Below, piece after piece: positions 220-22,600 of a stretch of DNA of 25,378 nucleotides. Below the pieces are notes generated by a model. That model saw only the letters and a program-made list of their open reading frames with translations, had not been told where the DNA came from and did not search any database. The DNA is taken from positions 1 through 25,378 of IMG/VR virus record IMGVR_UViG_3300030333_007801. One strand, written 5' to 3'. The DNA comes from a virus. Within the stretch, counting starts at the first letter, position 1. Each line of letters begins with the position of its first letter. Made by a program: the position numbers and the translations under genes.

Positions 220-363
220 AATGAGTAATTTTAAATTATTTCTTTTATACCATCTTTTTGGTTTTCTAAATCCAAAAATACCCAAATAATCTGGTGCTAA
301 CCAGAAAAGTGTATCATCATCTAAAGGGCGTGCTGATTTTTCGCACTGAATTAGCATTGACAT
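202..363 (-). CDS. Leftward small ORF, 53 aa, hypothetical protein
   Basis: The minus-strand frame runs from ATG (363-361) to TGA (204-202). It encodes MSMLIQCEKSARPLDDDTLF at the N-terminus and ends KLLIKKGLS. The middle reads FWLAPDYLGIFGFRKPKRWY, with a balanced mix of aromatic, charged and hydrophobic residues, unlike a random AT-rich frame. An AGGAA site (369-373 on the plus strand) sits 5 bases before the start, and CTAAATAA, similar to a late promoter box, lies 26 bases upstream. A two-way terminator covers its end. A second ATG two codons in (357) is an alternative start. I recognise no family. It is the only credible leftward gene here; it could instead be a decayed remnant. Confidence 0.5.
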   Translation of the reverse strand: MSMLIQCEKSARPLDDDTLFWLAPDYLGIFGFRKPKRWYKRNNLKLLIKKGLS

Positions 364-389
364 AAGAGTTCCTAGCTCTATTATAATTG

Positions 390-397
390 TTATTTAG
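390..397 (-). promoter_or_regulatory. Possible leftward late-type promoter box (CTAAATAA)
   Basis: The plus strand reads TTATTTAG, so the minus strand reads CTAAATAA followed by C. The minus-strand octamer differs at two positions from the CATAAATA box in front of gp25, or matches ATAAATAAC at 8 of 9 when shifted by one base. It lies 26 bases before the leftward ATG, much like the 21 bases between the gp25 box and the gp25 start. This AT-rich motif could occur by chance. Confidence 0.35.
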
Positions 398-421
398 CGA
401 CCTTTTCCACAAGTAAAAATT

Positions 422-475
422 TTTTCGTTCAAAAAGACCCTAATGGAGTGTTCCAAAGGGTCTTTTATACGAAAA
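422..475. terminator. Strong symmetrical hairpin, candidate terminator or structured RNA
   Basis: AAAAGACCCT (432-441) pairs perfectly with AGGGTCTTTT (457-466). Inside it, TGGA (444-447) pairs with TCCA (452-455). Outside it, TTTTCGT (422-428) pairs with ACGAAAA (469-475). T runs flank the stem on both strands, so it could terminate rightward read-through from the 47-aa transcript before gp25. A terminator for leftward transcription is harder to explain, because no leftward gene is seen to its right. It might instead be part of a small RNA or a processing site. Confidence 0.65.
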
Positions 476-572
476 TTGTCATTAGAGCTAGGAATTCTTA
501 TGACACTATTATTTAGTCGCCTAAATATAACCTTCTAATTTTTATAATCAAATATTTTTGAGTAAAGATACA

Positions 573-580
573 CATAAATA
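573..580 (+). promoter_or_regulatory. T4-type late promoter for the baseplate operon
   Basis: CATAAATA followed by AC matches the T4 late promoter core (TATAAATA) at seven of eight positions. It is the same ten-base string found before gp8 at 15098, and nearly the same as that before the gp13-like gene at 25291. It ends 21 bases before the gp25 ATG. With the usual distance from a late box to its transcription start, the leader would be only about a dozen bases. T4-type late promoters are read by the gp55 sigma factor with gp33 and the sliding clamp. Confidence 0.8.
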
Positions 581-3075: not shown

Positions 3076-6000
3076 ATGTCAGAAAATACAAGAGTCAAAA
3101 TTAGTTCAGTTGTTAAAAATCAACTGCCAGATTTTATAAGGGCAGATTTTCCACTTGCTGGTGATTTTTTAGCACAATATTATACTGCTATAGAAAATCA
3201 AGGATCTACACTTGATATTTTGCAAAATATTGATGAATATATAAAAGTTGATGAATTAGTAAACCTTGTAGATTCCACAACTCTTTCTGGATATGTTGGA
3301 ATAACAGATAACGTTATAGATGTTGAATCTACTACTGGATTTCCTGATACTTATGGATTAATTCAGATTAATGATGAAATTATAACATATACTGGAATTA
3401 CTACTAATTCTTTCACTGGATGCTCTCGAGGTTTTAGCGGAATTACATCATATAGAAGTCTTAACAAACCAGATGAACTTGTATTTTCACAATCTGGTAT
3501 TGCCACTCATTCTTCAGGCACGTCAGTTAGTAATCTAAGTATTCGTTTTTTACAGCAATTCTTCAAGAAGGTAAAGAAACAAATTACGCCAGGATTTGAA
3601 GAAAGACCACTTTCTGCTGATGTAGATAAAAGATTATTTGTTAAACAATCAAAAGATTTTTATTCTTCAAAAGGAACAGATCAATCCTTTGAGATTTTAT
3701 TTAGAGCATTATATGGAAAAGATGTAGAAGTTATTAAACCAAGTGATTATCTTTTCATACCTTCTGATGCGGAGTATAAAGTTTCTAAGCAACTTGTAGT
3801 AGAATCTATTGATGGAGATCCTATGGATCTTATTAATAGAAATATATTTCAAGATCCTGTATATGGATTTGAAAAGGCAAATGGAGCTATTAGTGATATA
3901 GAAAAAATAGTAAGAGGAGATAAGGCATATTATAGACTAAGTTTAGACTATGATCAAAGTTTAGATAAAGTAAGTGGAGATTTTTCTATACATCCTAATA
4001 CAAAATTAGTAGATGGTGTCTCAGTTGGATCAACAGTTTTAACTGTTGATTCTACAGTTGGATTTGGAACTACTGGTGTTTTAATAGCAAATTATATTGA
4101 TGGATCTTCAAGTACTATAAATTATACTTCAAAATCATTAACTCAATTTTATGGATGTAGTGGAGTAGATAAAAATATTTCACCAAAACATGATTTAAGA
4201 TTAGATGCATTTGCATATGGGTATTCTGGTATAGGAACTGCGGATGTAGTAAAAGTTAGAGTTACTGGTGTTTTATCTGATTTAATTCCTGAATTTAATA
4301 CTACCTATTATAATGAAGAAGGTAGTATTATTGAACCTAAAGGTTTGGGGTTAATTTCTAAAAGTGAAGTCACAAAGAATTTATTTACTAATATTTCTGT
4401 TACTTATAGTATAGAATCTATTGAATTAATTGACTCTTCAAACTTTACATATAAGTTAAATCTTTTTGATGACCATAATTTCGTTGCAGGAGATAATGCT
4501 CTTATTAATGATGTATCATGTTCTATCATATCTCTTGTTAGTTCTAAAGAAGTTTTAATTAAAGGTTCTGGAGAATTAAATCCAAATATTTCATATAGAA
4601 TTCAAAGGTTACTATCCAAAGCTAATTTAAGTAATTATCCTGAAGCAAATATTTACACTACAAATGTTCAAAACTCATATTTAACTCCTGGTATTGACGG
4701 AAATGATGTTTATATTGCTTCACCTTCACTTCCAAGTTATTTTGATGATGCTTTAGATATTAGAGAAACAGATTTATTATTTTCTGGTTCTTTTACTGAT
4801 GATACTGAAATATCCATCACTAATCATGGATTAATAACTGGAGAGAAGGTAACATATGTTCCTGGTGATGGAGATAATAAATTAGACTTAAGTGGTGGGG
4901 AGTATTTTGTCAAAAAGGTAGATATTAATACTATTAAACTTTCCAAAAGTAGTGCAAACATTTCTAATGAAATATATTCTACTTTTAGTGGAACTGTAAC
5001 TAATAATAAATTTGAACTTACTTTATTTTCTGAAAAATCAATACAATCTCAAAAATTAATTAGAAAAATTAAAGATCCTGTTTCATCTTTAATTAATCAG
5101 TCTACTCCAAGAGGAAAAACTGGTATTTTGGTGAATGGTGTTGAAATTCTTAATTATAAGTCTAATGATGTTGTTTCTTATGGTCCAATTCAAGATATTT
5201 CAGTTACAAGTGGCGGAAGTAATTATGATGTTATAAATCCACCTATTTTAGCAATTACAGATGGAGTTGGTGTAGGAGCATCTGCCTATTGTGAAGTTCA
5301 GGGGTCTATAGAAAAAATAGACATTGTAGATGAAGGATTTGATTATATTTCTACTCCTACTTTAAAAATAAGTGGTGGAAATGGGTCTGGGTGCATAGCA
5401 TATGCAAATTTGATTCAGAAGGATCATTCATTAACATTTGATTCCACTGAAACTGGAGGGTATGTTAATCTTACAAATAATACCATAGGATTTTCAACAT
5501 ATCATAAATTTAGAGATGGTGAATTAGTAACTTATATTACTGATACTCAAACTGCTATTGCTGGATTATCTACAGATGCTCCATATTTTTGTTCTATCAA
5601 AGATGCTACAACTGTCTCTTTACATGCCAATTATTTGGATGCTATAGCAGGAGTATCTAGTATTTCTATTACTGGTTATGGTGAAGGTATTCAAGAACTC
5701 AAATGTGCTATTAAAAAGAGGGTTATTGGATCTATAGGTATTGGTAATTCTGGAAGTGGTTATACTAATAGATTAACTTCAACAACTTCTTCAGGAATTA
5801 ATACTGCCACTAATATAATTAATATTCCTAATCATGGATATAAAACTGGTGAATTAATTAGATATGATAATAAAACTACTCCTATTATTGGACTTACTAC
5901 TCTAACAGATTATTATGTAACTGAAGTAGATGGAGGTTCATTTAAGTTGTCTGCTGTTGGAGTGGGTTCTACTCCAGCTAGTTTCTTCTTAAGAAATAAA

Positions 6001-9000
6001 AATTATATTGAATTGCTATCTGGTGGTGAAGGAATTAATGAATTTAATTATCCTCCAATTTCAGTAACAGTAACTGGAAATATAGGAGTTTCTACACTTT
6101 CTGGTCAAGATTTTAGTGCATCTTTACGACCTGTAGTAAGGGGTTCAATTAAATCAGTATATGTTGCTAATGGTGGTGTAGGATATGGATCATCAGACAT
6201 TATCAATTATAATAGGCAACCAACTTTTGAAGCGAAAAGTGGAAAAAATGCTCAATTAATTCCTATAATAACTGTTGATGGTAAGTTGAGTGAAGTTATA
6301 GTATTGAATTCAGGTACTGAATATAATTCTCCTCCTAATTTAAAGATGGAGGGAACTGGTAAAGGTACTGTTATCATTCCTATTTTAAAAAATGGATCTA
6401 TCGATTCAGTTAAAATAGTTAATGCTGGTGTAGGTCACACTTCTAGTGATGCTAGTATAACAGTAACATCTAACGGAGATGGTGCTAATTTTTATGCTAA
6501 TACTAAAACATGGACTATTAATAGCGTTGAAAGATTAATACAAAATGACCAAATTACGACTGATGATGGGGTAGTTTCTGCTGGTTTGAATGATGAGTAT
6601 GGTCTTCAGTATTCTCATTTATATGCACCCAGAAAATTAAGACAATCTGTTTATATTAAAAAATCTATAGGTGATAAGGAAGTATTTGTTCCAGATCTTT
6701 CATTGGAAAATGATATTGAACAAGTCTCAGTTTCTCATTCACCAATTATTGGATGGTCATATGATGGATGTCCAATTTATGGTCCTTATGGATATACAAA
6801 TAGTTCTGGTGGTCCTATTAAAATTTTAGAATCAGGGTATTCCCCTTCTATTTCTAGTGAGAGACCCAACCCACTCACATCCAATGGAGAGAAGATATAT
6901 TCTGAAGGATTTTTTGTAGAAGATTATACTTATTCTGATGATAAAGATTTAGATGAACATAATGGCAGATTCTGTAAAACACCAGAATTTCCTAATGGAG
7001 TTTATGCTTATTTTGCATTAATTAACCCAACTATAAATGATGATGAGGGTGCTTTTAAAAATTATAGAAAACCACAGTTTCCATATTTTATAGGTAATTC
7101 GTATAAGTATCAATCTATAGATTATAATTTTGATTATAGATCTAATCAAGATATAGTAGATCTTAATACTACAAATTTAGTCAGAAATACTACTCCTTAT
7201 AATTTCTTACTTAATGATACAAGTTATGATTTTGTATTAAATCCTAGCAATATTCATAGACAAAGAACTTATATTACGTCTACTACTGCTGGAAAAATTC
7301 AAAGTGTAGGGGTTAATACTGGAGGATCTCAATATAAAGTGGGAGATGAGGTAGTTTTTGAAGATGTAGGATCTAGTGGATATGGATCTAAATCTATTGT
7401 TAATTTTATTAAGGGTAAAACTGTAAATCAAGTTAGTGTTGCTTATACTGAATTTTCTAATGTAGAATTTATACTTGGAAATTATTCTGGCCAATATGTA
7501 GGATATACTACAAATCCTCATAATTTTTATCATAATGAAATAAGTTATATTTCTGGACTAAGTACTAGTGGTTTAAAGAATAACTCTTTAATAAAAATAG
7601 GAATTACAACAAATACTTTTAAATTATTTGATGCAGTTAATGCTTCTTCTTCTACTGGAATTGTAACTTACTTTAATTTAGAAGGAAATATAAGACCTCC
7701 TTATATAAAAGAAAATGATGTTTTGGGGATAGGAACTGAACAAGTAAAAGTTTTAAATGTAGATATTGAATCATCTAGAGTTAGAGTAATAAGAGAATGG
7801 AATTCTACTTCAGGAACTGCACATACAGCTTCTTCTAGAGTAGAACAAAAGCCTAGAAGTATTGTTTTTAACGCTACTCCTAAATTAGAAAATTCCAATT
7901 TAAAACTTAATAGAGAATTATATTTTAATCCATCAGAATCTGTTGGATTAGGAACAACATCTGGTGTAGGAATTGGATCTACTTTAGTATTTTCTAATCC
8001 TGGAGTTGGATTGACTGAATTATTCATTCCAACTAAATCACTTTATTTTAAAGATCATGGATTATTAACTGGAGATGCATTAACTTACAGTACAAATGCA
8101 GGAGCTGCTGTATCAGTGTCTACTGATGGTATAGATGGATTCGCTCTTACTCAAGGACAAACTGTTTATGCAGCAAAAATATCTAATGATTTAATTGGTA
8201 TTGCTACTGCAAGAGTAGGACTTGGATCTACTGGAACTTTTGTGGGAATTAATAGTACTACTACAGAGTCTACTTTATATTTTATTGGGGTTGGTACTGG
8301 AATATACCATAGTTTAAAAACTAACTATGAAAATAGTTTAGTAGGATCATTAAGTAGATCTTTAGTAACTGTATCTACAGCTTCTACTCATGGATTAAAA
8401 CCTAAAGATGATGTTGAATTAACTATTCAACCAGGAATAACTACTACTGTAAAAGTAGCATATAATGACTATAATAGAAGATTAGTAATAGATCCAAGAA
8501 CTTTTGGGTCTGGTGATGTAAGTGTTGGAAATAATACTATTACTATTTCAAGACATGGTTACAGTAATGGACAAAAAGTTATTCATACAGCAACTACATC
8601 TTCTGGTGGGTTAGTGGACAATGGAATTTATTATGTATCATTAGTAGATAAGAATACTATAAAATTATGCAATACTTATTATGATTCTATACATGTAGAA
8701 CCAAAAGCAATTGATATTACTAGTGCCTCTGCTGGAACTATTTCTCCAATTAATCCTCCTATAAAATTAGAAAGAAATTTAAAAATATACTTTGATCTTT
8801 CCGATTCTTCTTTATCATTCGTTGATGGAGGAGTTTCCTATAGTGCATTTGATTTTAATCTTTATACTGATCCAAATCTAACTAATATATTCTCTACTTC
8901 AGGAGAAACAGATGATTTTAATGTAGTTAGAACTGGGGTAGTTGGTGTAGATGCAAATGCTAATTTAACTGTAAAAAATGTAAAAGAAATTAATAATACA

Positions 9001-12000
9001 TTATATTATAATTTAACTCCAATAAACAAATTATTAAATTCTTCACTTAAAACTGAGATTATTAGAGATACTGAAAATATTAATAATTCCAATTCTGCTA
9101 CTTTATTCTCCAATCCATTATCAGGAAATAAAACTATAGTAGGAGTTGGATCTACTACATTTTCTTTTATATCACCCATTATTCCTCAAAAATTAGAATA
9201 TACATCATCAGATGGTGTATTTTCTTATGTTACTAATTCTAAAAATGCAGAAGGTCCAATTGCTAGTGTTGGAGTAGAAAATCAAGGATTCGAATATAAA
9301 TCTCTTCCAGGAATTAGCACTATAATTTCATCTAAAGGAAATAATGCAATTTTAGAAACAAAGGCTCCTACAGTAGGAAGAATAAGTCAATTAATGATTC
9401 AAGATATTGGATTTGATTATTCTGTAGATAAAACTCTTAGACCTGAATCTAATATACCACAATTAATTAAATTAGATCTACTTACTTCTTTAGAAAGTAT
9501 TGGAATTAGTTCAGTTGGAAAAAATTACTTAGAATCTCCAGGTTTGGTTCTTTTGGATGGATTGACTAATAAGGTAGTTGATGATGTTGATTTAAATTAT
9601 GAATTAGGAGATACTCAAGTTAGTATTTTAAAAAATAGTAAAACTTTGAATAATGTTACTCCTAAGATTATTCCTACTAGCAATTCTAATGGATATACTA
9701 TTAATAGTATAGATTATGATGAAGGAAATAAAAATGTAACATTGACAATTGGAGCAAGTTTTAGTGATGCTGCTGATTACCCATTTGAAGTGGGTAAGAA
9801 AGTAATGATTGAAGGAGTTAGTGTTGGAGTTGGAAGTACTGGTAAGGGTTATAATAGTGAGAATTATGATTATACTCTATTTGAGATTTTAGCAACAGAT
9901 CCTAATATTGGAGGAACTTTAGGAACAGTAAGATATAATTTATCTAATATTATTTCAGATGGTCAAATTCCTGGAACATTCCAATCCAATATTTCATCTG
10001 CAAAAATAATAGCTGAAAAAGATTTCCCAATTTTCGATATTAAATTAAAAGTTGATGAATTTGAAAAAGGAGAAGATGTTGTATCTGGTTCTAAACGTGG
10101 ATCTTTACAATCTTGGAATAATTCTTATGGATATCTTAGGGTATCTTCAACTCAAGATTTTGCTATAGGAGAATCTTTTGTAGGAGAATCTTCTGGTACT
10201 CAAGGAACCATAACAGAAGTTTTAGTAGACAATTCTTTATATGATATCGGTTCTTCTTCTATAGTGAAAGAAGGATTCCAGAAAAATACTGGATTTTTAA
10301 ATAATGATTTGCAAAGAGTTATTGATAGTGATTATTATCAATATTTCTCATATTCACTAAAATCTGAATGTGAGTTTGAAAAGTGGAAAGAGGCTGTATC
10401 TACTTTAAATCATACAGCAGGATTTAAAAAATTTAGTGATTTAATTATTAAAAATAGCGCAGAAGTAGGAATTACTTCTGTTCAGACTGAAAGTACATTT
10501 GAAGTAATAAATGATTTAATTTCTATAATGGATTTGAATACAGTATTTGATTTTGATTTAGCAAGAGAAAAAACATTAACAATAGGTTCTCAAATAATTT
10601 CTGATGAAATAGTTTTTGATACTAAAATTTTACAAGATTATAGTGAGTCTATAGGTAATAGAGTTTTGACTGTTGATGATATTAGTGGAGATTTTAATAA
10701 TAATGCTAGAACAGATGCATTTATGTCTGTTGATAGTTTCACTTTAGCAAGCGTAAGATATAGAAAATATATTACTTTTATTAGAGATAAGAGATATACT
10801 AAAGAAAGACAAATACTCTTAGTATCTGCTCTTCATGATGATAGTGGTAATATCTTCCTAAACCAATATGGTAGAGTTGAAACTAACACTGACCTTGGTG
10901 AATTTGGTGGGGATTTAGGTTCCTATGACATGGATATTGCTGGTGATGATGGAAGATTACTCTTCTATCCTAAGAAGTTTAAATTCAATAATTATGATGT
11001 TTCTAATGTTGCATTTAATATTTCTGACAGTGTTGCTGGTGTAGGTTCTACTGGATTAGGTGGTATTGTTAATATTACAAGTAGTACTACAACTATACCT
11101 TTAGGAATTACTACACAACATAGTATTGTTTCTTTTGCTACCACTTACAGAGGATCTAAGGTATTAGTATCTTATGCTGCTAGTGATGCTTCATATTGGG
11201 AGCATGATGAAATAACTTTGGTTCATGATGGAACTAATGTAGATATGATTGAGTATGGGCAGTTATCTACAGGTGATGTTGGTAGTGCTTCTGGAGAACC
11301 TGGTCTTGGAACTTATAGTGCTTATATTGCTGGATCTAGAGTTCATTTAGATCTTCATCCTACAGTATCCACTGCAAGTACATATGTTGCTAATACTGTG
11401 CATGTAGATTTTGGAAATGCATCATCTGCTGGAGTTGGCACTACATCATTAAATACTGCTAATTTAGATTCCAGATATACTTCTATATCTGCCAGTGGTT
11501 CTCCATCTGCTACTGCAGTGGCACAATATGAAACTGAAACATTTAATGGTGCTTATTATGTTGTATGTGTAGAAGATACTACTAATAGTCATTATCAAAT
11601 ATCAGAAGTTATAGTAGTAGATGATGGAACAACTCCATATGTTACTGAATATGCTATTAACCAAACTGTCACTAATTTAGGTGATTTTAGTGCTGCTATT
11701 TCTGGAGATTATACTACTTTAACATTTACTCCTATAGCAAGTGCTGCTGTTCAGGTTAGAGTATTCCAAGCTGCTTTAAGATTGGTTGATGAGGCAAATG
11801 AGGTTAATGAGATAGATTTAACTAATGCTACCATTGATACTGGATTTGGTGCTTATACTGCTACTGAGACTGATGTTAAGAGAGCATTTGAACTTAAGCA
11901 TAGACAACTACCAATCTTTAAGAGGGACTTTGTAGGAAGTGCTTCTACCACAGTTAGTTTGGCTGAAGATACAATTAGATTACCAGATCATTACTTTGTT

Positions 12001-15000
12001 ACTGGAGAGGAATTATCTTACAGATATACTGGATCTGGTACTACTTCTGCTATTGAGATTGCATCACAAGCTATACCTGGATATGGTACTACAGATAAAA
12101 TGCCTTCTACTGTATATGCAGTTAAAGTAGATGATTCTACTCTTAGACTTGCTACTTCTGCAGAGAATGCATTAAAGACTAATCCTACTTATTTGGATAT
12201 TACTGCAGTTGGAGTTGGAACTTCTCATTCATTTACTTCTAAAAAGCAAAACTCAAGATGTATATTAAGTATTGATAATGTGGTTCAATCTCCAATAGTT
12301 GCTACTGCTGTAACTACTACTATTACTGCTGATGTATCTGCTACTACAGATAAGATTAAACTATCAGGAATAACGTCTATTACTGGTGGTGATATGTTGA
12401 AGATTGGTGATGAGATTATGAAGGTGGATTCTGTTGGATTAGGTGCTACCAACGTTCTATTAGTAACTAGACCTTGGATGGGAACACAATCAGGTGTTCA
12501 TAGTGATGGAACTTTAATTACTAAGGTGGAAGGAAATTATAATATTGTAGATAGCACTGTTAACTTCTTTACTGCTCCTGTAGGATTAACTCCATTATCA
12601 ACTACTACTAATGAACCAGATGAAAGGGATTGGGTTGGTATTGCAACTCATTCATCTTTTAATGGCAGATCCTTTATGAGATCTGGTATTACTGGTAGTG
12701 CTGATGAACCTTATGCTGGTAACTATATTTTTGATGATATTTCTTCTAATTTTACTGGATTGACTACTCAGTTTACTCTTACATCTGGTGGAAGTAATAT
12801 AGCAGGATTCTCAACAAATAATGCTCTTATATTAGTCAATCAAGTACCACAAGGACCACAAAGATATACTGGTGGTGTATCTATTGCTGGAGATTATACT
12901 TTAACAGAAAGTGCAGGAATTACCAGTGTTCAATTTACAGGATCTATTTCATCTGTATCTTATGATCCTAATACTGCAAATGTTCCTCTTGGTGGTGTTA
13001 TTGTTTCTGTTGGTTCTACAGAAGGTTTAGGATATCAACCATTGGTTGCTGCAGGTGGTACTGCTATAGTATCTGGTTTGGGTACTATTAGTTCTATTAG
13101 TATAGGTAATAGTGGTTCTGGTTATAGAACTGGTATTCAGACAGTAGTTAACGTAGGTGTTCAAACCTTAAGTACAGGAGCACCTAATATTGAGTTTATT
13201 GGTACTGCTGCTATAAGTGGTGGTAATATTGTAAGTATTGCTATTACCAATCCTGGTACTGGTTATACATCAACTAATCCTCCATCAGTTGTAATAGATG
13301 AGCCATTATCTTATGATAATATGCCTCTATTCTATTCTTCAAATCAATCTGGGGTAGGATCAGAAGCAAGAGCAAATATAGTTGTTGGATTGGGTGGTAG
13401 TGTAATTGATTTTGAAATTACCAATCAAGGATATGGTTATGGTGAAACTCAGAAGTTAACTATAGGTGTAGGTGGTACTGTAGGTATTCCAACTGCAGGT
13501 GCTGCAGAATTTAGAGAATTCCAACTCACAGTTAATGAAACTGTAAGTGATAGTTTTGCTGGATGGACAGTTGGAGACTTTCAAGTTTTAGATCCTTTAG
13601 ACTCATTGTTTGATGGAAAGACAATTTCATTTGCATTAAACCTTAATGGAACACAGCAAACTATTCAATCTAAACCAGGTTCAAATATAGATGTTGAAGT
13701 TCTTTTATTAGTATTCATTAATGATATTCTTCAAGTTCCTGGAGATGGATATGAATTTAAGGGTGGTAGTTTCATTACCTTTAAAGAAGCACCTAAGTCA
13801 GGAGATACTTCTAAGATTTTATTTTATAGAGGAACTGGTTCTGTTGATGTTACTAATGTTGATATATTAGAAACAGTTAAAGCAGGTGATGAATTAAAAT
13901 TATATGACCAATCTATTGGGTTAGAAGAAAATAGAAGAACAGTAACTACTATTAATTCTTCAGATAGTTTAGATACAAATATCTATCCTGGTCCAGGAAT
14001 TACTACTAATGAAACATTCCAAAGATCTGTTACATGGTTTAGACAAACTCAAGATAAATTTATAGATGGAGAAGCTGTTACTAAGGATAGACCTCATTAT
14101 GAACCATTGATATATCCTAATACTAATATTATTCAATCAGTTGGTGTAGGATCTACTGTTATCTTTGTTTCAAATATAAGAACTTTCTTTGATAGTTCAA
14201 AGGAAAATTATACTGGTCAAAATGACATTAGAATCATTTCTCAAGACAGTATAGTTGGAGCATCTGCTACTGCCTTTGTTTCTGCTGCTGGAACTGTAAC
14301 TTCATTTGATATTACCAATCCTGGTGTTGGATATACAATAGCACCAACAGTTTCTATTACTACACCTGTAGGATATACTACTTCTCAGGGTGCTAGAGCA
14401 ACTGCTACTATAAGTGGAGTTGGAACTGTAAATGCTATTACAGTTTCTTATGGAGGAACTACAACTGGACTTGCATATACTAATACTGCTGCTCCTTCAG
14501 TTCTCATAGGAGAACCTAAGTTAGCAACTGCAATCGAGACTATTGAAAATGTATCTTATTCTGGTGATTTTGGTATTATATCTGGTATTTCAACTACTTC
14601 AGTTGGAGTAGCATCTACTGGTATTGTATTTGATTTACTTCTTCCTAAGGAGTCATTATTTAGAAATGCTGCTACTGTAGGAAGTGCTCTTACTGTAAGT
14701 GGAATTTCAACTGGATACTACTTCACAGTCTTTAATTCTAATGTAGGTGCTTCAGTAACTTCTTTATATCAAGATGGAACTGTGGTTGGTATAGGAACTT
14801 CCTTCTTAGATAATGTCTATGAGGTTGCTCAAGTTTCTATAGCTCAAACTATGGGTATAGGAATTGGATTAACATATGTTGCACAAGTAACAGTTAGTGT
14901 TCAGGATTATAATGGATTAACTGGACTTGGATATAGTGAGTTTTTTGGTGAATATAGTTGGGGAAGAATTGTCACAGCTCCTAGAGGATCTGCAAGGACA

Positions 15001-15102
15001 TTTACTTCATATGCTGGAAATAGTGATGGATTATCTGGAATAACTACTTCACCAATAATTGAAAGAGTTAATCCTTTAAGATACGTAAATTATAACACAT
15101 AA
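3076..15102 (+). CDS. Giant baseplate wedge protein in the gp7 position (4008 aa)
   Basis: This intact frame of 4008 codons is about four times the length of T4 gp7 (1032 aa), whose place in the gene order it fills. Residues 1-65 hold a wedge-type motif (LPDFIRADFPLAGDFLAQYY). Residues 155-245 hold the module with FYSSKGTDQSFEILFRALYG seen at the N-termini of phage wedge proteins. Long beta-rich repeats follow: GSGY-type units (about 710-780, 980-1150, 2060-2165, 3335-3465, 3728-3815) and HG-xTG units ending in TIKL. Residues 1175-1345 form a YHYH-like domain with SYDGCPIYGPYGY. Conserved marine-phage segments appear near 2415-2460 (WKEAVSTLNHTAGFKKFSDL), 2525-2660 and 3565-3710. The C-terminus contains FFGEYSWGRI. 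An AGGAAA lies 17 bases from the ATG, too far to be a good SD. I infer a gp7-like scaffold enlarged with exposed modules; host contact is possible but unproven. Confidence 0.85.
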   Translation: MSENTRVKISSVVKNQLPDFIRADFPLAGDFLAQYYTAIENQGSTLDILQNIDEYIKVDELVNLVDSTTLSGYVGITDNVIDVESTTGFPDTYGLIQINDEIITYTGITTNSFTGCSRGFSGITSYRSLNKPDELVFSQSGIATHSSGTSVSNLSIRFLQQFFKKVKKQITPGFEERPLSADVDKRLFVKQSKDFYSSKGTDQSFEILFRALYGKDVEVIKPSDYLFIPSDAEYKVSKQLVVESIDGDPMDLINRNIFQDPVYGFEKANGAISDIEKIVRGDKAYYRLSLDYDQSLDKVSGDFSIHPNTKLVDGVSVGSTVLTVDSTVGFGTTGVLIANYIDGSSSTINYTSKSLTQFYGCSGVDKNISPKHDLRLDAFAYGYSGIGTADVVKVRVTGVLSDLIPEFNTTYYNEEGSIIEPKGLGLISKSEVTKNLFTNISVTYSIESIELIDSSNFTYKLNLFDDHNFVAGDNALINDVSCSIISLVSSKEVLIKGSGELNPNISYRIQRLLSKANLSNYPEANIYTTNVQNSYLTPGIDGNDVYIASPSLPSYFDDALDIRETDLLFSGSFTDDTEISITNHGLITGEKVTYVPGDGDNKLDLSGGEYFVKKVDINTIKLSKSSANISNEIYSTFSGTVTNNKFELTLFSEKSIQSQKLIRKIKDPVSSLINQSTPRGKTGILVNGVEILNYKSNDVVSYGPIQDISVTSGGSNYDVINPPILAITDGVGVGASAYCEVQGSIEKIDIVDEGFDYISTPTLKISGGNGSGCIAYANLIQKDHSLTFDSTETGGYVNLTNNTIGFSTYHKFRDGELVTYITDTQTAIAGLSTDAPYFCSIKDATTVSLHANYLDAIAGVSSISITGYGEGIQELKCAIKKRVIGSIGIGNSGSGYTNRLTSTTSSGINTATNIINIPNHGYKTGELIRYDNKTTPIIGLTTLTDYYVTEVDGGSFKLSAVGVGSTPASFFLRNKNYIELLSGGEGINEFNYPPISVTVTGNIGVSTLSGQDFSASLRPVVRGSIKSVYVANGGVGYGSSDIINYNRQPTFEAKSGKNAQLIPIITVDGKLSEVIVLNSGTEYNSPPNLKMEGTGKGTVIIPILKNGSIDSVKIVNAGVGHTSSDASITVTSNGDGANFYANTKTWTINSVERLIQNDQITTDDGVVSAGLNDEYGLQYSHLYAPRKLRQSVYIKKSIGDKEVFVPDLSLENDIEQVSVSHSPIIGWSYDGCPIYGPYGYTNSSGGPIKILESGYSPSISSERPNPLTSNGEKIYSEGFFVEDYTYSDDKDLDEHNGRFCKTPEFPNGVYAYFALINPTINDDEGAFKNYRKPQFPYFIGNSYKYQSIDYNFDYRSNQDIVDLNTTNLVRNTTPYNFLLNDTSYDFVLNPSNIHRQRTYITSTTAGKIQSVGVNTGGSQYKVGDEVVFEDVGSSGYGSKSIVNFIKGKTVNQVSVAYTEFSNVEFILGNYSGQYVGYTTNPHNFYHNEISYISGLSTSGLKNNSLIKIGITTNTFKLFDAVNASSSTGIVTYFNLEGNIRPPYIKENDVLGIGTEQVKVLNVDIESSRVRVIREWNSTSGTAHTASSRVEQKPRSIVFNATPKLENSNLKLNRELYFNPSESVGLGTTSGVGIGSTLVFSNPGVGLTELFIPTKSLYFKDHGLLTGDALTYSTNAGAAVSVSTDGIDGFALTQGQTVYAAKISNDLIGIATARVGLGSTGTFVGINSTTTESTLYFIGVGTGIYHSLKTNYENSLVGSLSRSLVTVSTASTHGLKPKDDVELTIQPGITTTVKVAYNDYNRRLVIDPRTFGSGDVSVGNNTITISRHGYSNGQKVIHTATTSSGGLVDNGIYYVSLVDKNTIKLCNTYYDSIHVEPKAIDITSASAGTISPINPPIKLERNLKIYFDLSDSSLSFVDGGVSYSAFDFNLYTDPNLTNIFSTSGETDDFNVVRTGVVGVDANANLTVKNVKEINNTLYYNLTPINKLLNSSLKTEIIRDTENINNSNSATLFSNPLSGNKTIVGVGSTTFSFISPIIPQKLEYTSSDGVFSYVTNSKNAEGPIASVGVENQGFEYKSLPGISTIISSKGNNAILETKAPTVGRISQLMIQDIGFDYSVDKTLRPESNIPQLIKLDLLTSLESIGISSVGKNYLESPGLVLLDGLTNKVVDDVDLNYELGDTQVSILKNSKTLNNVTPKIIPTSNSNGYTINSIDYDEGNKNVTLTIGASFSDAADYPFEVGKKVMIEGVSVGVGSTGKGYNSENYDYTLFEILATDPNIGGTLGTVRYNLSNIISDGQIPGTFQSNISSAKIIAEKDFPIFDIKLKVDEFEKGEDVVSGSKRGSLQSWNNSYGYLRVSSTQDFAIGESFVGESSGTQGTITEVLVDNSLYDIGSSSIVKEGFQKNTGFLNNDLQRVIDSDYYQYFSYSLKSECEFEKWKEAVSTLNHTAGFKKFSDLIIKNSAEVGITSVQTESTFEVINDLISIMDLNTVFDFDLAREKTLTIGSQIISDEIVFDTKILQDYSESIGNRVLTVDDISGDFNNNARTDAFMSVDSFTLASVRYRKYITFIRDKRYTKERQILLVSALHDDSGNIFLNQYGRVETNTDLGEFGGDLGSYDMDIAGDDGRLLFYPKKFKFNNYDVSNVAFNISDSVAGVGSTGLGGIVNITSSTTTIPLGITTQHSIVSFATTYRGSKVLVSYAASDASYWEHDEITLVHDGTNVDMIEYGQLSTGDVGSASGEPGLGTYSAYIAGSRVHLDLHPTVSTASTYVANTVHVDFGNASSAGVGTTSLNTANLDSRYTSISASGSPSATAVAQYETETFNGAYYVVCVEDTTNSHYQISEVIVVDDGTTPYVTEYAINQTVTNLGDFSAAISGDYTTLTFTPIASAAVQVRVFQAALRLVDEANEVNEIDLTNATIDTGFGAYTATETDVKRAFELKHRQLPIFKRDFVGSASTTVSLAEDTIRLPDHYFVTGEELSYRYTGSGTTSAIEIASQAIPGYGTTDKMPSTVYAVKVDDSTLRLATSAENALKTNPTYLDITAVGVGTSHSFTSKKQNSRCILSIDNVVQSPIVATAVTTTITADVSATTDKIKLSGITSITGGDMLKIGDEIMKVDSVGLGATNVLLVTRPWMGTQSGVHSDGTLITKVEGNYNIVDSTVNFFTAPVGLTPLSTTTNEPDERDWVGIATHSSFNGRSFMRSGITGSADEPYAGNYIFDDISSNFTGLTTQFTLTSGGSNIAGFSTNNALILVNQVPQGPQRYTGGVSIAGDYTLTESAGITSVQFTGSISSVSYDPNTANVPLGGVIVSVGSTEGLGYQPLVAAGGTAIVSGLGTISSISIGNSGSGYRTGIQTVVNVGVQTLSTGAPNIEFIGTAAISGGNIVSIAITNPGTGYTSTNPPSVVIDEPLSYDNMPLFYSSNQSGVGSEARANIVVGLGGSVIDFEITNQGYGYGETQKLTIGVGGTVGIPTAGAAEFREFQLTVNETVSDSFAGWTVGDFQVLDPLDSLFDGKTISFALNLNGTQQTIQSKPGSNIDVEVLLLVFINDILQVPGDGYEFKGGSFITFKEAPKSGDTSKILFYRGTGSVDVTNVDILETVKAGDELKLYDQSIGLEENRRTVTTINSSDSLDTNIYPGPGITTNETFQRSVTWFRQTQDKFIDGEAVTKDRPHYEPLIYPNTNIIQSVGVGSTVIFVSNIRTFFDSSKENYTGQNDIRIISQDSIVGASATAFVSAAGTVTSFDITNPGVGYTIAPTVSITTPVGYTTSQGARATATISGVGTVNAITVSYGGTTTGLAYTNTAAPSVLIGEPKLATAIETIENVSYSGDFGIISGISTTSVGVASTGIVFDLLLPKESLFRNAATVGSALTVSGISTGYYFTVFNSNVGASVTSLYQDGTVVGIGTSFLDNVYEVAQVSIAQTMGIGIGLTYVAQVTVSVQDYNGLTGLGYSEFFGEYSWGRIVTAPRGSARTFTSYAGNSDGLSGITTSPIIERVNPLRYVNYNT
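5203..6500 (+). repeat. Tandem GSGY-type and HG-xTG-type protein repeats in the giant gene
   Basis: Units of roughly 30-40 residues follow the pattern: small turn, G-G/S-x-Y, x5-7, P-x-L/V, beta strand, G-x-G-x-G-A. Examples are VTSGGSNYDVINPPI at 5203, IVDEGFDYISTPTLKISGG near 5323, VANGGVGYGSSDI near 6160, VLNSGTEYNSPPNLKMEG near 6301 and VNAGVGHTSSDASITV near 6418. HG-xTG units (NHGYKTGELI near 5830) are interleaved with them. Further copies occur at 7291-7440, 9250-9560, 13081-13470 and 14260-14515. The DNA copies are diverged, so this is an old protein-level repeat rather than a recent tandem duplication. Stacked beta folds are likely. Confidence 0.7.
6600..7110 (+). other. YHYH-like domain within the 4008-aa protein
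   Basis: Residues about 1175-1345 contain IIGWSYDGCPIYGPYGY and, later, FCKTPEFPNGVYAYFAL and FPYFIGNSY, the hallmark segments of YHYH domains carried by marine T4-like phage structural proteins. The tetrapeptide that names the family normally stands just before the DG-PIYG motif; here that place reads VSVSHSP, so the signature itself seems degenerate. The family's biochemical role is unknown to me. Its position in the middle of a beta-repeat scaffold suggests an exposed module. Confidence 0.65.
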
Positions 15103-16698: not shown

Positions 16699-19600
16699 AT
16701 GCCACAGGAAACCAATCTAAACGTCGCTCCTTATTTTGACGATTTTGATACTAAAAGTAATTATTGTAAAATATTATTTAAACCAGGATTACCTGTACAA
16801 GCACGTGAATTAACAGGAATTCAATCTATTCTTCAAAGTCAGATTGAAAAATTTGGGCAACATATTTTTAAAGATGGAGCTTCTGTGACTGGAGGTGGAG
16901 TTAGATATAATGGTGGATATACTTCTGTTAGAATTCAAAGATCTAATGAAGGAATAGATGTACACTCATATCTTAACAGATTGGTAGGTAAAGTAGTAAT
17001 TGGAAGTCAATCTGGAATAAAGGCTAAGATAAAATCATTTATTACTAGAGCTACTGGTGAAAATTGGTATATTTTATTCATAGCTTATTTAAATACTGGC
17101 GGAGAAAATAATGAAGTATTTTTGCCTGGAGAAAGTTTATTATTAGATAATGAAGTAGTAACTACAAGATCAGGAACAATATTTCAACCTGGAGAACCTG
17201 TTGCTCAATTGGTTCCAGGGGTTTGTTCATTTACTGGGTCTGCTGCTGTATTATCTTCTGGAATTTATTTTATAAGAGGATATTTTGTAGATGTTTCTTC
17301 TCAAACTATTGTTTTAGATCCATATCGTAATGATGTTAGTTTTAAAGTAGGATTAAAAATTAACGAAAATATAGTTACTTCAGATTTAGATCAAAGTTTA
17401 ACAGATAATGCCGCAGGATTTAGCAACTATACTGCTCCTGGTGCTGATAGATTAAGTATAAGTGTTCAATTAGTTGGAATACCTCCTACAGAAGCTAAAC
17501 CATCTAATTTTATAGATTTGATGGAAGTTAGAGAAGGTCAATTAATTTATGTGCGTCAAGAAAATGATTATAATGATTTAGCTAATGAATTAGCTAGAAG
17601 AACTTTTGATGAATCTGGTAATTATTATGTTAAACCATTTTCTCTTAATGCCAAGAATACCTTAAATGATTATGAAGGAAATAATGGAATTTTTAATGCA
17701 AGTCAAACAACTTATAATAATAATACTCCAAGTGATGATTTAGGAACTTATAAGTTATCTCCAGGAAAAGCGTATGTTGAAGGATTTGAAGTTGAAACAA
17801 TAACTCCTACTTTTTTAGATTTCAAAAAACCAAGAACAACAAAAACATTAGAAAATCAAAGTATCAATTATGTTACTGGACCTACTTTCACATTAAATAG
17901 GGTTTCTGGATCACCTTCAATAGGAGTAGGAACTAATTATACTGTTAGTTTGCGAGATGAAAGAATTGGTGCTGCTGCAACTACTGCTGCTGGTAAAGAA
18001 ATTGGAATAGCACGTGTATATGATTTTGGGTTAGAATCTGGGTTCTATGATTCTTCTAATCCTAGTGAAAATGAATGGGATATTGCTTTATATGATATTC
18101 AAACTTATACTAATATAACATTAAACACTAATCCATCAAATGCTTTAACTGTCCCTACACATATTAAAGGTAAATCAAGTGGAGCAACTGGTTATCTAAG
18201 ATATAATTCTGTTGGTACTGCTGTTACTGCATATAATACTAAAGGAACTTTTATTTCTGGAGAGCAATTAATTTTTAACGGCATAGAAAGTGGAAATATT
18301 TCAGCAGCATCTACTTCATATACTACTAGTGATATTAAATCTATTAATGGCACAGTAAGCACAGCAAGCACTTTTAATGCTGATGTAAAACAAAGTGTAT
18401 TATCTAATATAGGAGAAGTTAATATTAGTATTGCTACTACTTCTGGAGCTTACTTAGGTATATCAACAGTTACTAGTACTGATCTCAGTAAATTTTTCAT
18501 AGGAATTGCTACTGTTGGTAATGTTGTAGCATATACAAATCCTGGAAAAAGCATTCCTTCTTTTGCAAAAATTGAAAGTGTTTCTCAACATTCTTTAACT
18601 ATTTCAGGTCTTACTACTGTTACTGGTATTTGTGATGGTGGTCTTCCTATTAGCACAATTAATCCATCTGATTTTAGGATACTTGCTTCACAATTCCAAT
18701 CTTCTACAGATAACACTTTATATACTTCATTACCTAAAAATAATATTTCAGATGTAAATCTACAAAATTCTAATATTACTATTAGAAAACAGTTTGAAGT
18801 AAATATAACTGACAATTCTACAGGATCTATTAGTAGTGGTAATGGAAATGAAACTTTCTTGCCTTTTGATGAAGAAGATTATCTTTTAATAAGAGATGAT
18901 GGAACTACAGAATCTTTATCATCTGATAAATTTGATTTTAATGAAGGATCTACTCAAATAATAATTAATGGATTAGGAACTAATAGTGGTGCTAGATTAA
19001 TAGCGACATTACGTAAAATAAATGTAAAGGAAAAAATTAAAGAAAAGCAAAAAATTAATATACTTAATATAGTTGGATCTGCTAGTTCTATATCTGGTAT
19101 TGGAACTACTACATTAAATGATGGACTTACTTATAATAAAGTATATGGAACACGTGTTCAAGATGAAGAAATTTCATTAAATGTTCCAGATGTTATGAAA
19201 ATATATGGAGTATATGAATCTTCCAATGCAAGTGAAGCAGTTTTACCAATATTAACCTTTAGTTCTATTAATAGTGCAACTGGTAAAACTGGAGATTTTC
19301 TAATTGGAGAAACTTTTATTGGTGATCAAAGTAGTGCTATTGGTGTATATGTTAGTAAGAATACGGATTCTGCTATAAATTATACTCTTATTAATGATTT
19401 TGGTTTTCAAATTGGAGAAACAATTACTTTTAGAGAATCTGGAATTAGTGCTACTATAGGGGCTATTAGTTTAGGTTCCAATAATATAACTGATGAATAT
19501 AATTATGATGATGGACAAAGAAGTACAATATATGATTACTCTAGATTAATAAGAAAACCTGGATATGATGCACCTACTAAGAAGTTGAAGATAATATTTG

Positions 19601-22600
19601 AATCAGCTTATTTTACAGATTCTGATACAGGAGATATTACTACAGTTAATTCTTATGATAATTTTGAATATAAAAATTTACATTCAATTAATGGAAAAAG
19701 AGTAAGTGATATTATTGATATAAGACCTCGAGTTTCTGATTTCTCAGGAACATCACGTTCTCCTTTTGAATTTTTAGGTAGATCATTTGATGCATCTGGA
19801 AATTCTGCTCCAAATATTTTAGCATCTGATAAATCTATTTTATTAGATTATTCTTTCTATCTTCCTAGATTAGATAAAATTTACTTAACTAAAAATGGAA
19901 GTTTCCAATTAGTTAATGGAGTTCCAGCTGAGACTCCAGAATGGCCTACTCCTATAGATGGAGCATTAGAAGTAGCTTCTATTAAACTTCCTGCATATCT
20001 TTTCAATATAAAAAATGCAAGTATTACTCTTGCATCTTATAAGAGATATCAGATGAGTGATATCAATAAACTTGAAAAGAGAATTGAGAATTTAGAATTC
20101 TATACAACTCTCTCTTTATTAGAGAATGATACTTTAAATATGCAAATTACTGATGCTGATGGTTTAAATAGATTTAAATCAGGTTTCTTTGTAGATGATT
20201 TTTCTGATACAGAAAATCAACTTAAAAAGACTATTGTAAAAAATTCTATAGATTATCATAATGGAGAATTGAGACCATCACCTTATACTACTGAGTTAGA
20301 TCTTAAGGTGGATATGACTAGTTTGAATGGTGTTAGAAGGACTAGTAATATAATAACTTTAGATTATGATGAGGTTGTGCATGTATCTCAACTTTTTGCA
20401 ACTAGAGTTGAAAATGTTACTCCATATCTTGTAAGTTACTATGGAGGAACCATAGATTTAGTTCCTGATTCTGATATATGGGTAGATCAGGTAGTTCTTG
20501 AAGCTAAGAATGAAGATCTTACTACTTATACTGAAAATGAGGAGCAATTAGATGCTTCTGGATTTGACTCAAGATCTGGATATGGTCCAGTAACGTGGGG
20601 AGGTTGGAGAGATAATTGGACTGGATATAGTCAAGGTGGTTCTTGGGAAGATATAGAGTGGGTAGGACAAGATTTAGTCAGAAATGTATATGCAACTCAA
20701 ACTAGAACTGGAACTTCTCAAAGGACTGCAAGAAAGAGTTTAACTAGAGAAACATTTAGTACTATTAATGAAGGACCTAAGGTAGTCAATACTGAAGTAA
20801 GTGCTCATATGAGATCTAGAAATATTAAATTTGATGCCAGAACTTTAAAACCATCAACTGGTCTTTATGCATTCTTTGATGGACAAGATGTAGCAAAATA
20901 TATTATTCCCAAACTTCTTGAAATTACAATGACTACTGGTACTTTCCAAGTAGGTGAAACTGTTATAGGTACTAATAGTGAAGGAAAAGAATTGATTAGA
21001 TTTAAAGTAGCTCAATCCAATCACAAGAGAGGAAATCCTATAGATCCTAATTCATTCTATAATGTTAATCCATATTATCAATTTACTTCTTTGATGAAAG
21101 GAACTTCTGTTTTAGTTGACACTATAGTTCCAGCTTCTTCTACTACTACAAGTACAGATGAATCTACTGCTTCTAATCTTAGCATTATTCCAGAATTATA
21201 TTCTTCAACATCAACTATACTGAATATAGACTTAGATTCTTTATCTGAAAAATCAGATAATACATATTTTGGATATGTTGAAAAAGGTTTAAAATTAGCA
21301 GGACAAACATCTAATGCTCAAGCTACAATTTCTAATCTAAGATTAAGAAGTGATAATGTAGGAAGTGTAATTGGATCTTTCTTTATTCCTAATCCTAATG
21401 ATATAACTACTCCAAAATTTGAGACTGGTAAAAAAGTCTTTAGACTTACAAGCAGTAGTGTTAATAGCCAAATAGCTGGAAATGTTACTTGCGATGTCTC
21501 TGGAACTTTTGATTCTAGTGGAACTATTAATACAATGCAATCTACTATCATTAGTGTGAAGAATATTCATACTGATGTGTTAACTAAAGTTGAGAGTAAA
21601 TCTATTAGTAGTGATGATGGTACAACTTTAGTAAGTTCTACTGTCATAGACACCAGAAGAAATCAAGCTGATGACACTATGAATGTTATTGGTGATCCTG
21701 ATGATCTTACTGATAACGTAGTAGTTGATTTGCCAGAGGATCGTATTGGTGGTCCAGATTCTACTTATGTTGACTATGTTCCTGCATTAGATACAGTAGA
21801 GCAAGCACAGTCTTGGGTAGAACAAGATACTTATGTTCCAAAATTAACAAACACATATAATGGAGTAACACAAAAATCTCATTTCACTGGGTTCAATGTT
21901 ATTGAAGATGATGCTGGTAACACTACTGTAGAATCTGTTGATCCTATAGCAAATGCTTATGCTTTAGCTGGAGATCCTCCTCCAGATGAAGGAGCAGTAA
22001 AGTATTGGACTGCATCAATTGCAGAAGAATTGGGTACTGACGCTACTCCTCAACAAGTCCAAGAAAGGATGATTGAGCATATTGAATGGGCTAATGCTCA
22101 AACTACTGAATCACTTGCAGCATTTGAGGTAGCTGCAGCTGATGACATTGCAGCTAATTTTGCTGCTATTGAATCCGAAACTGGATTAGCTCAAGGAGAA
22201 TATGCTGCTTTAAATAAACCATGTGGGCATGGATATCAAGATCCACTTGCTCAATCTTTCTGGGTTCCTCATGGAGTTGGAATATATGCAACTAAAGTAG
22301 ATCTGTATTTTGGTACTAAAGATCAGTTCTTACCAGTAAGTGTTCAGTTAAGAACAATGAAATTGGGAGTTCCTACTACTGAAATAATTCCTTTTGGTGA
22401 AGTTGTATTAAATCCTGAACAAGTTAACATATCTGATGATGCATCTCTTAAAACAGTAGTTAGATTCCCTTCTCCTGTATATCTTCCAGGTGGACAATCT
22501 TATGCTATTGTTCTTTTATCTAATAGCAATGAATATACTGCTTGGATTTCAAGAATGGGAGAAGTGGATGTTCAAACAAAGAATAATCCAGAATCTGAGC

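Follow-up and report, generated by a model that had tools for sequence, protein, structure and literature searches.

A transferable leftward cassette upstream of gp25 in T4-like cyanophages, with a predicted antisense RNA and a small late gene

The window (the whole stretch of DNA analysed here, a 25,378-bp virus record) represents part of a T4-like cyanophage genome. Near its left end lies a gene for a 47-aa protein (47-190), a conserved small phage gene that matches phrog_516 in PHROGs; gp25 follows at 602-1003, with further baseplate and tail genes downstream, and all of these, the 47-aa gene included, point rightward. The 47-aa protein is basic (PKKTYQGRGKHTKYAATS..KPKKRYRGQG), adjoins the cassette described below, and is conserved across cyanophages. 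Two ORFs in the baseplate region, of 4008 aa (3076-15102) and 2666 aa (16699-24699), are unusually large for that location. The space between the 47-aa gene and gp25 is bounded on the left by a terminator common to the rightward 47-aa gene and a leftward small gene (198-219, both strands; a GGACTC/GAGTCC stem with A/T-runs on each side) and on the right by the late-promoter motif of gp25, ATAAATA (574-580, plus strand). By the ORF list, only rightward transcription occurs over the 25 kb to the right of the inverted repeat that fills this space, and within the window no gene co-oriented with the leftward cassette lies to its right.

The inverted repeat itself is real. Its arms (359-382 and 481-504) match at 21 of 24 positions, a repeat search recovers 349-380/483-514 at 81% identity, and both the perfect 10-bp inner hairpin (432-441/457-466) and the 7-bp stem flanking it (TTTTCGT/ACGAAAA) are present. 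The segment 355-510 folds at -54.7 kcal/mol against -24.1 +/- 3.3 kcal/mol for 200 shuffled sequences (z = -9.2), none of which equals it. The original prediction saw in the arms two outward-facing gene starts, each with a ribosome-binding site and an ATG. The minus-strand ATG at 361-363 does open a 53-aa ORF (202-363), but the plus-strand ATG is the complement of that start; when a ribosome-binding site and ATG lie in an inverted repeat, a second pair on the other strand is automatic. Only the leftward start belongs to a conserved gene, the other being its antisense. Nor is duplication of the SD-like AGGAA the point of the structure, since the relative L218 has lost AGGAA yet keeps the arm pairing; as far as the sequences tell, it is the pairing and not the motif that is conserved across cassettes. 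The suggested position at the junction of an earlier-type transcript with the late operon is not supported: the upstream gene is the conserved phrog_516 gene, and gp25 carries a late-promoter motif of its own.

Read along the minus strand, the region presents an ordered unit: a promoter (P2), an antisense seed, an intrinsic terminator, a second promoter (P1), a leader complementary to the seed, and the 53-aa ORF. P2, for the small RNA, is the late-promoter-like CTAAATA at 510-516, which differs by a single base from the late motif of cyanophages, NATAAATA (PMC2984593). The predicted antisense sRNA of about 76 (~75) nt spans 431-506, with its 5' end near 506 and its 3' end at the U-run 435-431. 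It would begin GUGUCAU...AUGAC, with a 5-bp stem, GUCAU (504-500) and AUGAC (482-478), that holds the second arm in its loop. This seed arm (483-505) pairs with the first arm at 21 of 23 positions and covaries with it across relatives. Between the arms stand the intrinsic terminator (431-466; the 10-bp stem, then five U, with a leftward T-run as in other cassettes) and P1, the late-promoter-like GCTAAATA at 391-398, which would serve the small gene. The leader arm (358-380), within a leader of about 23 nt, covers the SD-like AGGAA and the ATG, and its pairing with the sRNA runs from position -17 to position +5, counted from the ATG. From this layout one expects an RNA of ~76 nt followed, on the same strand, by an mRNA with a leader complementary to that RNA. 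An Rfam search gave no hit above the gathering threshold, only sub-threshold matches with E of 0.08 or more.

Relatives, gathered by searching with gp25, with the 47-aa gene and with sequences of the cassettes, yield 14 distinct cassettes immediately upstream of gp25, all with this layout and each with matched arms (the window/L001/L002; L218; L040; L093; L092; L014; L108; L008/L099; L012; L177/L178; L179; L004/L006/L007; L005/L236; L240). Many other relatives are cassette-free, with the gp25 late promoter coming straight after the terminator of the 47-aa gene. When each distinct gp25 protein is taken once, a cassette is present in 18 and the site is empty in 46, figures that do not represent population frequencies because the loci were picked by similarity. 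BLASTN and tblastn against cultured phages (INPHARED) found no cassette at the gp25 site. In all cassettes CTAAATA or TATAAATA (TATATA in L108) stands upstream of the ATG at a matching distance, as P1, giving leaders of 19-26 nt (52 nt in the exceptional L014). At the P2 place CTAAATA or TATAAATA occurs in 9 of 18 gp25-upstream sequences, and in L040, L093 and the L008/L012/L177 group an A+T-rich stretch resembling TATATAAT is all that marks P2; these promoter calls are short motifs only, weak for P2 in several cassettes. One more distant cassette (L240, positions 1-414) has a larger terminator, a payload related to the L108 type, and no clear P2. The sRNAs predicted from homologous cassettes fold as two hairpins, the first at the 5' end with the seed at or close to its loop, the second being the terminator, and the whole unit from P2 to the ATG folds with z between -3.1 and -8.5.

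The payload of the cassette, 53 aa in the window (MSMLIQCEKSARPLDDDTLFWLAPDYLGIFGFRKPKRWYKRNNLKLLIKKGLS), has counterparts at the same place in relatives, with C-termini of the related form (K/R)(W/Y)x(K/R)R(N/D/S)N. Between the window and L002 the payload shows seven synonymous and two other changes; between L004 and L005 there are two synonymous changes against ten others, and that reading frame is less convincing. Payloads are modular, L177 combining first codons of the L099 type with a body of the L108 type. No family match was found in Pfam, PHROGs, NCBIfam or PADLOC, an AlphaFold model showed no confident fold (pLDDT 55), and a search of other genomes with a payload profile returned only an already known cassette.

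The arms differ almost totally in sequence between most cassettes and match within each, and the check for compensatory changes in relatives that the original prediction proposed is clearly passed. Across seven related (type I) cassettes, 83 of 89 seed-leader cells pair, a count that leans somewhat towards pairing as the 14-mers were set by hand on conserved CAU/AUG anchors (with gaps in L092, and seven positions only for L014). Among all 5040 permutations of seeds and leaders for these cassettes only the true one reaches 83/89; the other 5039 fall short. Columns 10 and 11 of the alignment contain all four Watson-Crick types. Scoring limited to the seed, used because full-RNA RNAduplex energies are too noisy to rank cognates owing to the A/U-rich tails, does without the hand layout. 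For 11 or 12 of the 14 seeds it gives the cognate leader the top rank, and where it does not, the cassettes are near relatives of one another (L012/L008 and L179/L177). Individual changes tell the same story. From the window to L218, CCU:AGG becomes ACG:CGU (C-G to A-U, U-A to G-C), double changes that also destroy the SD-like AGGA. L040/L093 and L177/L179 each show a C-G to G-C change in the paired arms, and L179 differs from L177 by a G-C to U-A double change in the 5' stem, which in the type I-cassette sRNAs is nearly invariant and therefore weak evidence alone. Pairing is less regular in L012 (13 of 15 paired, with two central mismatches) and in L014, where an extra ~28 nt separates the seed match from the ATG. 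Read on the leftward strand, the arm pairings include nine G-U wobbles against three A-C mismatches, and the terminator stem of L004/L005 depends on G-U pairs that exist only on that strand; both favour the leftward strand as the RNA. Whole-unit folding energies in the window do not distinguish the strands.

Cassettes also part company with their neighbours. L008 and L099 are only 73.8% identical in gp25 DNA and 100% identical over 93 nt of sRNA DNA; for L005 and L236 the figures are 73% and 96.5%. Conversely, unrelated or absent cassettes occur beside gp25 genes that are 96-99.5% identical. For example, L012 and L014 have gp25 at 99.5% identity with unrelated cassettes, L004 and L005 differ in seed at 98.5% identity, and one and the same gp25 protein occurs with a cassette in L014 and without one in L015. 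On these sequence comparisons, cassettes do move between phages.

When about 4.5 Mb of cyanophage strand-sequence was scanned for the full layout, five distinct sites with P2 were detected. Apart from known cassettes, the scan picked out three other sites; reversed-sequence controls give one hit without P2 and none with it. The layout precedes a GIY-YIG homing endonuclease gene in G003 (near 65.3 kb) and b23_0045 in the cultured phage B23 (near 41.5 kb). The b23_0045 product (L332 / MN695335.1, 41542-42165) is annotated as "translation initiation factor 2", and it matches homing endonuclease profiles and NUMOD3. The third site, near 179.7 kb in phage B23, has a weaker terminator and precedes b23_0294, a repeat protein of uncertain type.

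It would appear that the structure is a transferable leftward cassette in which an antisense sRNA blocks translation of a small late gene in trans, a reading to which we assign a probability of about 0.63. Its layout, covarying arms, wobble strand bias and exchange between phages can be read from the DNA; what we infer is that P2 and P1 are transcribed, that the sRNA acts in trans and represses the gene, and whatever benefit the phage may gain. Late transcription from P2 would yield a short RNA whose 5' hairpin displays, at or close to the loop, a seed of 12-20 nt, ahead of the terminator. P1, also late, would yield the mRNA for the ~50-aa protein, with a 5' leader complementary to the seed. 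As the pairing spans the leader and often the AUG, the sRNA would block translation, perhaps also exposing the paired mRNA to RNase. Should transcripts from P2 read through the terminator, the same arms could also pair in cis, again masking the start. A control role, as originally suggested, is likely, and a duplex between transcripts could indeed cover a translation start.

The cassette most likely represents, by analogy, a tandem version of the divergent type I loci of E. coli (tisB/istR-1, shoB/ohsC, zor/orz, dinQ/agrB), with an embedded late promoter as in the T4 e/soc/I-TevI hairpins. In those E. coli loci an sRNA gene likewise adjoins a small-protein gene without overlap, and a stretch of about 20 nt is complementary to the mRNA leader (PMC4147584). 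The phage arrangement differs in that one strand carries both sRNA and mRNA, one after the other; in several cassettes the complementary stretch extends as far as the AUG, the promoters are of the phage late type, and the protein is not hydrophobic. The predicted RNA is complementary to the predicted small-protein mRNA, with covariation, as an antisense RNA of a type I system would be. Type I toxins are small hydrophobic, usually membrane-spanning proteins, and 11 payloads lack this character (maximum Kyte-Doolittle, window 17, of -0.44 to 1.24). SymE and RalR are exceptions to the hydrophobic rule.

The T4 late-gene hairpins (e, soc, 49, I-TevI and segB, with mobE of Aeh1) suggest an alternative, control in cis alone: longer leftward transcripts, carrying both arms, would hide the start, and P1 transcripts, which lack the first arm, would be translated late. 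Here as there, a late promoter lies inside the inverted repeat (P1, 391-398, whose transcript would lack the 5' arm) and the helix of a longer RNA takes in the start codon (PMC2988022, PMC3014915). At the homing endonuclease sites of G003 and phage B23, which have co-oriented genes upstream, such a cis hairpin may apply. At the gp25 site it is less likely. Neither an early leftward transcript nor early or middle read-through into the gene is expected, given that transcription to the right of the site runs rightward throughout 25 kb; a terminator stands between the arms in every cassette; and P2 of the window is itself late-type, so that P1 and P2 give no early/late distinction. The phage cassette further differs from the T4 hairpins in its larger loop and variable arms, and in that its terminator and second, upstream late promoter would produce a separate short RNA.

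A poorer alternative, which we regard as improbable, treats the arms as the terminal inverted repeats that bound a small mobile element, or as a homing or recombination site, their match arising by transposition or template switching rather than through RNA pairing. The arms are nearly perfect, and cassettes are patchy in occurrence, replaced and horizontally transferred. However, the arms do not bound the inserted DNA, with the ORF and P2 falling outside them; many cassettes have arms of unrelated sequence; promoters, terminator and start codon keep their places relative to the arms; and the wobble bias favours a leftward RNA. Comparison by eye with cassette-free sites revealed no target-site duplication at the cassette junctions, and with the arms not terminal a terminal-repeat element is rejected. 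Packaging or recombination as the primary role, proposed earlier, is not supported. Template switching between arms could help to maintain their identity. Least probable of all is that a strong terminator or insulator separates divergent late units and the small ORF is incidental, as the perfect inner hairpin with T-runs and the nearby divergent gp25 promoter might suggest, since seed-leader covariation and an ORF family at a fixed distance are not needed for one; the structure is, as first proposed, more than a simple terminator.

Two further phage systems bear comparison with the antisense cassette. CfrI of cyanophage S-PM2 (PMC2984593, PMC12197685) is likewise an antisense RNA from a T4-like cyanophage and is associated with a homing endonuclease gene, but it is ~225 nt long, truly opposite-strand to psbA and the endonuclease gene, and is no seed-loop sRNA with a small payload. 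The PeSL cassettes of T4-type phages, in the account given in PMC4503421, which cites them, are similarly mobile intergenic units of promoter and stem-loop; that account gives them early promoters and does not mention antisense pairing.

According to a review of post-transcriptional control in T4, functional characterisation has been achieved for no small trans-acting RNA of that phage; it notes that related genomes might suggest candidates (PMC3014915). The predicted sRNA is such a candidate, supported by covariation and present in many ocean phages, and the cassette connects T4 late-gene hairpins with type I antitoxin RNAs, both of them textbook devices. A more tentative extension, which we hold to be possible rather than probable, is that the cassette is a transferable antisense-RNA module of lytic marine phages whose hypervariable seed is allele-specific, so that each phage silences its own allele only, and that alleles act as types of an RNA-based immunity or addiction during co-infection, with homing endonucleases sharing the control design. 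An addiction or co-infection role for a silenced small gene in a lytic phage is speculation. The diversity of seeds makes specificity between co-infecting phages directly testable using natural alleles, and in one metagenome sample (3300030107) several alleles (L093, L099 and L218) are found together, along with empty sites.
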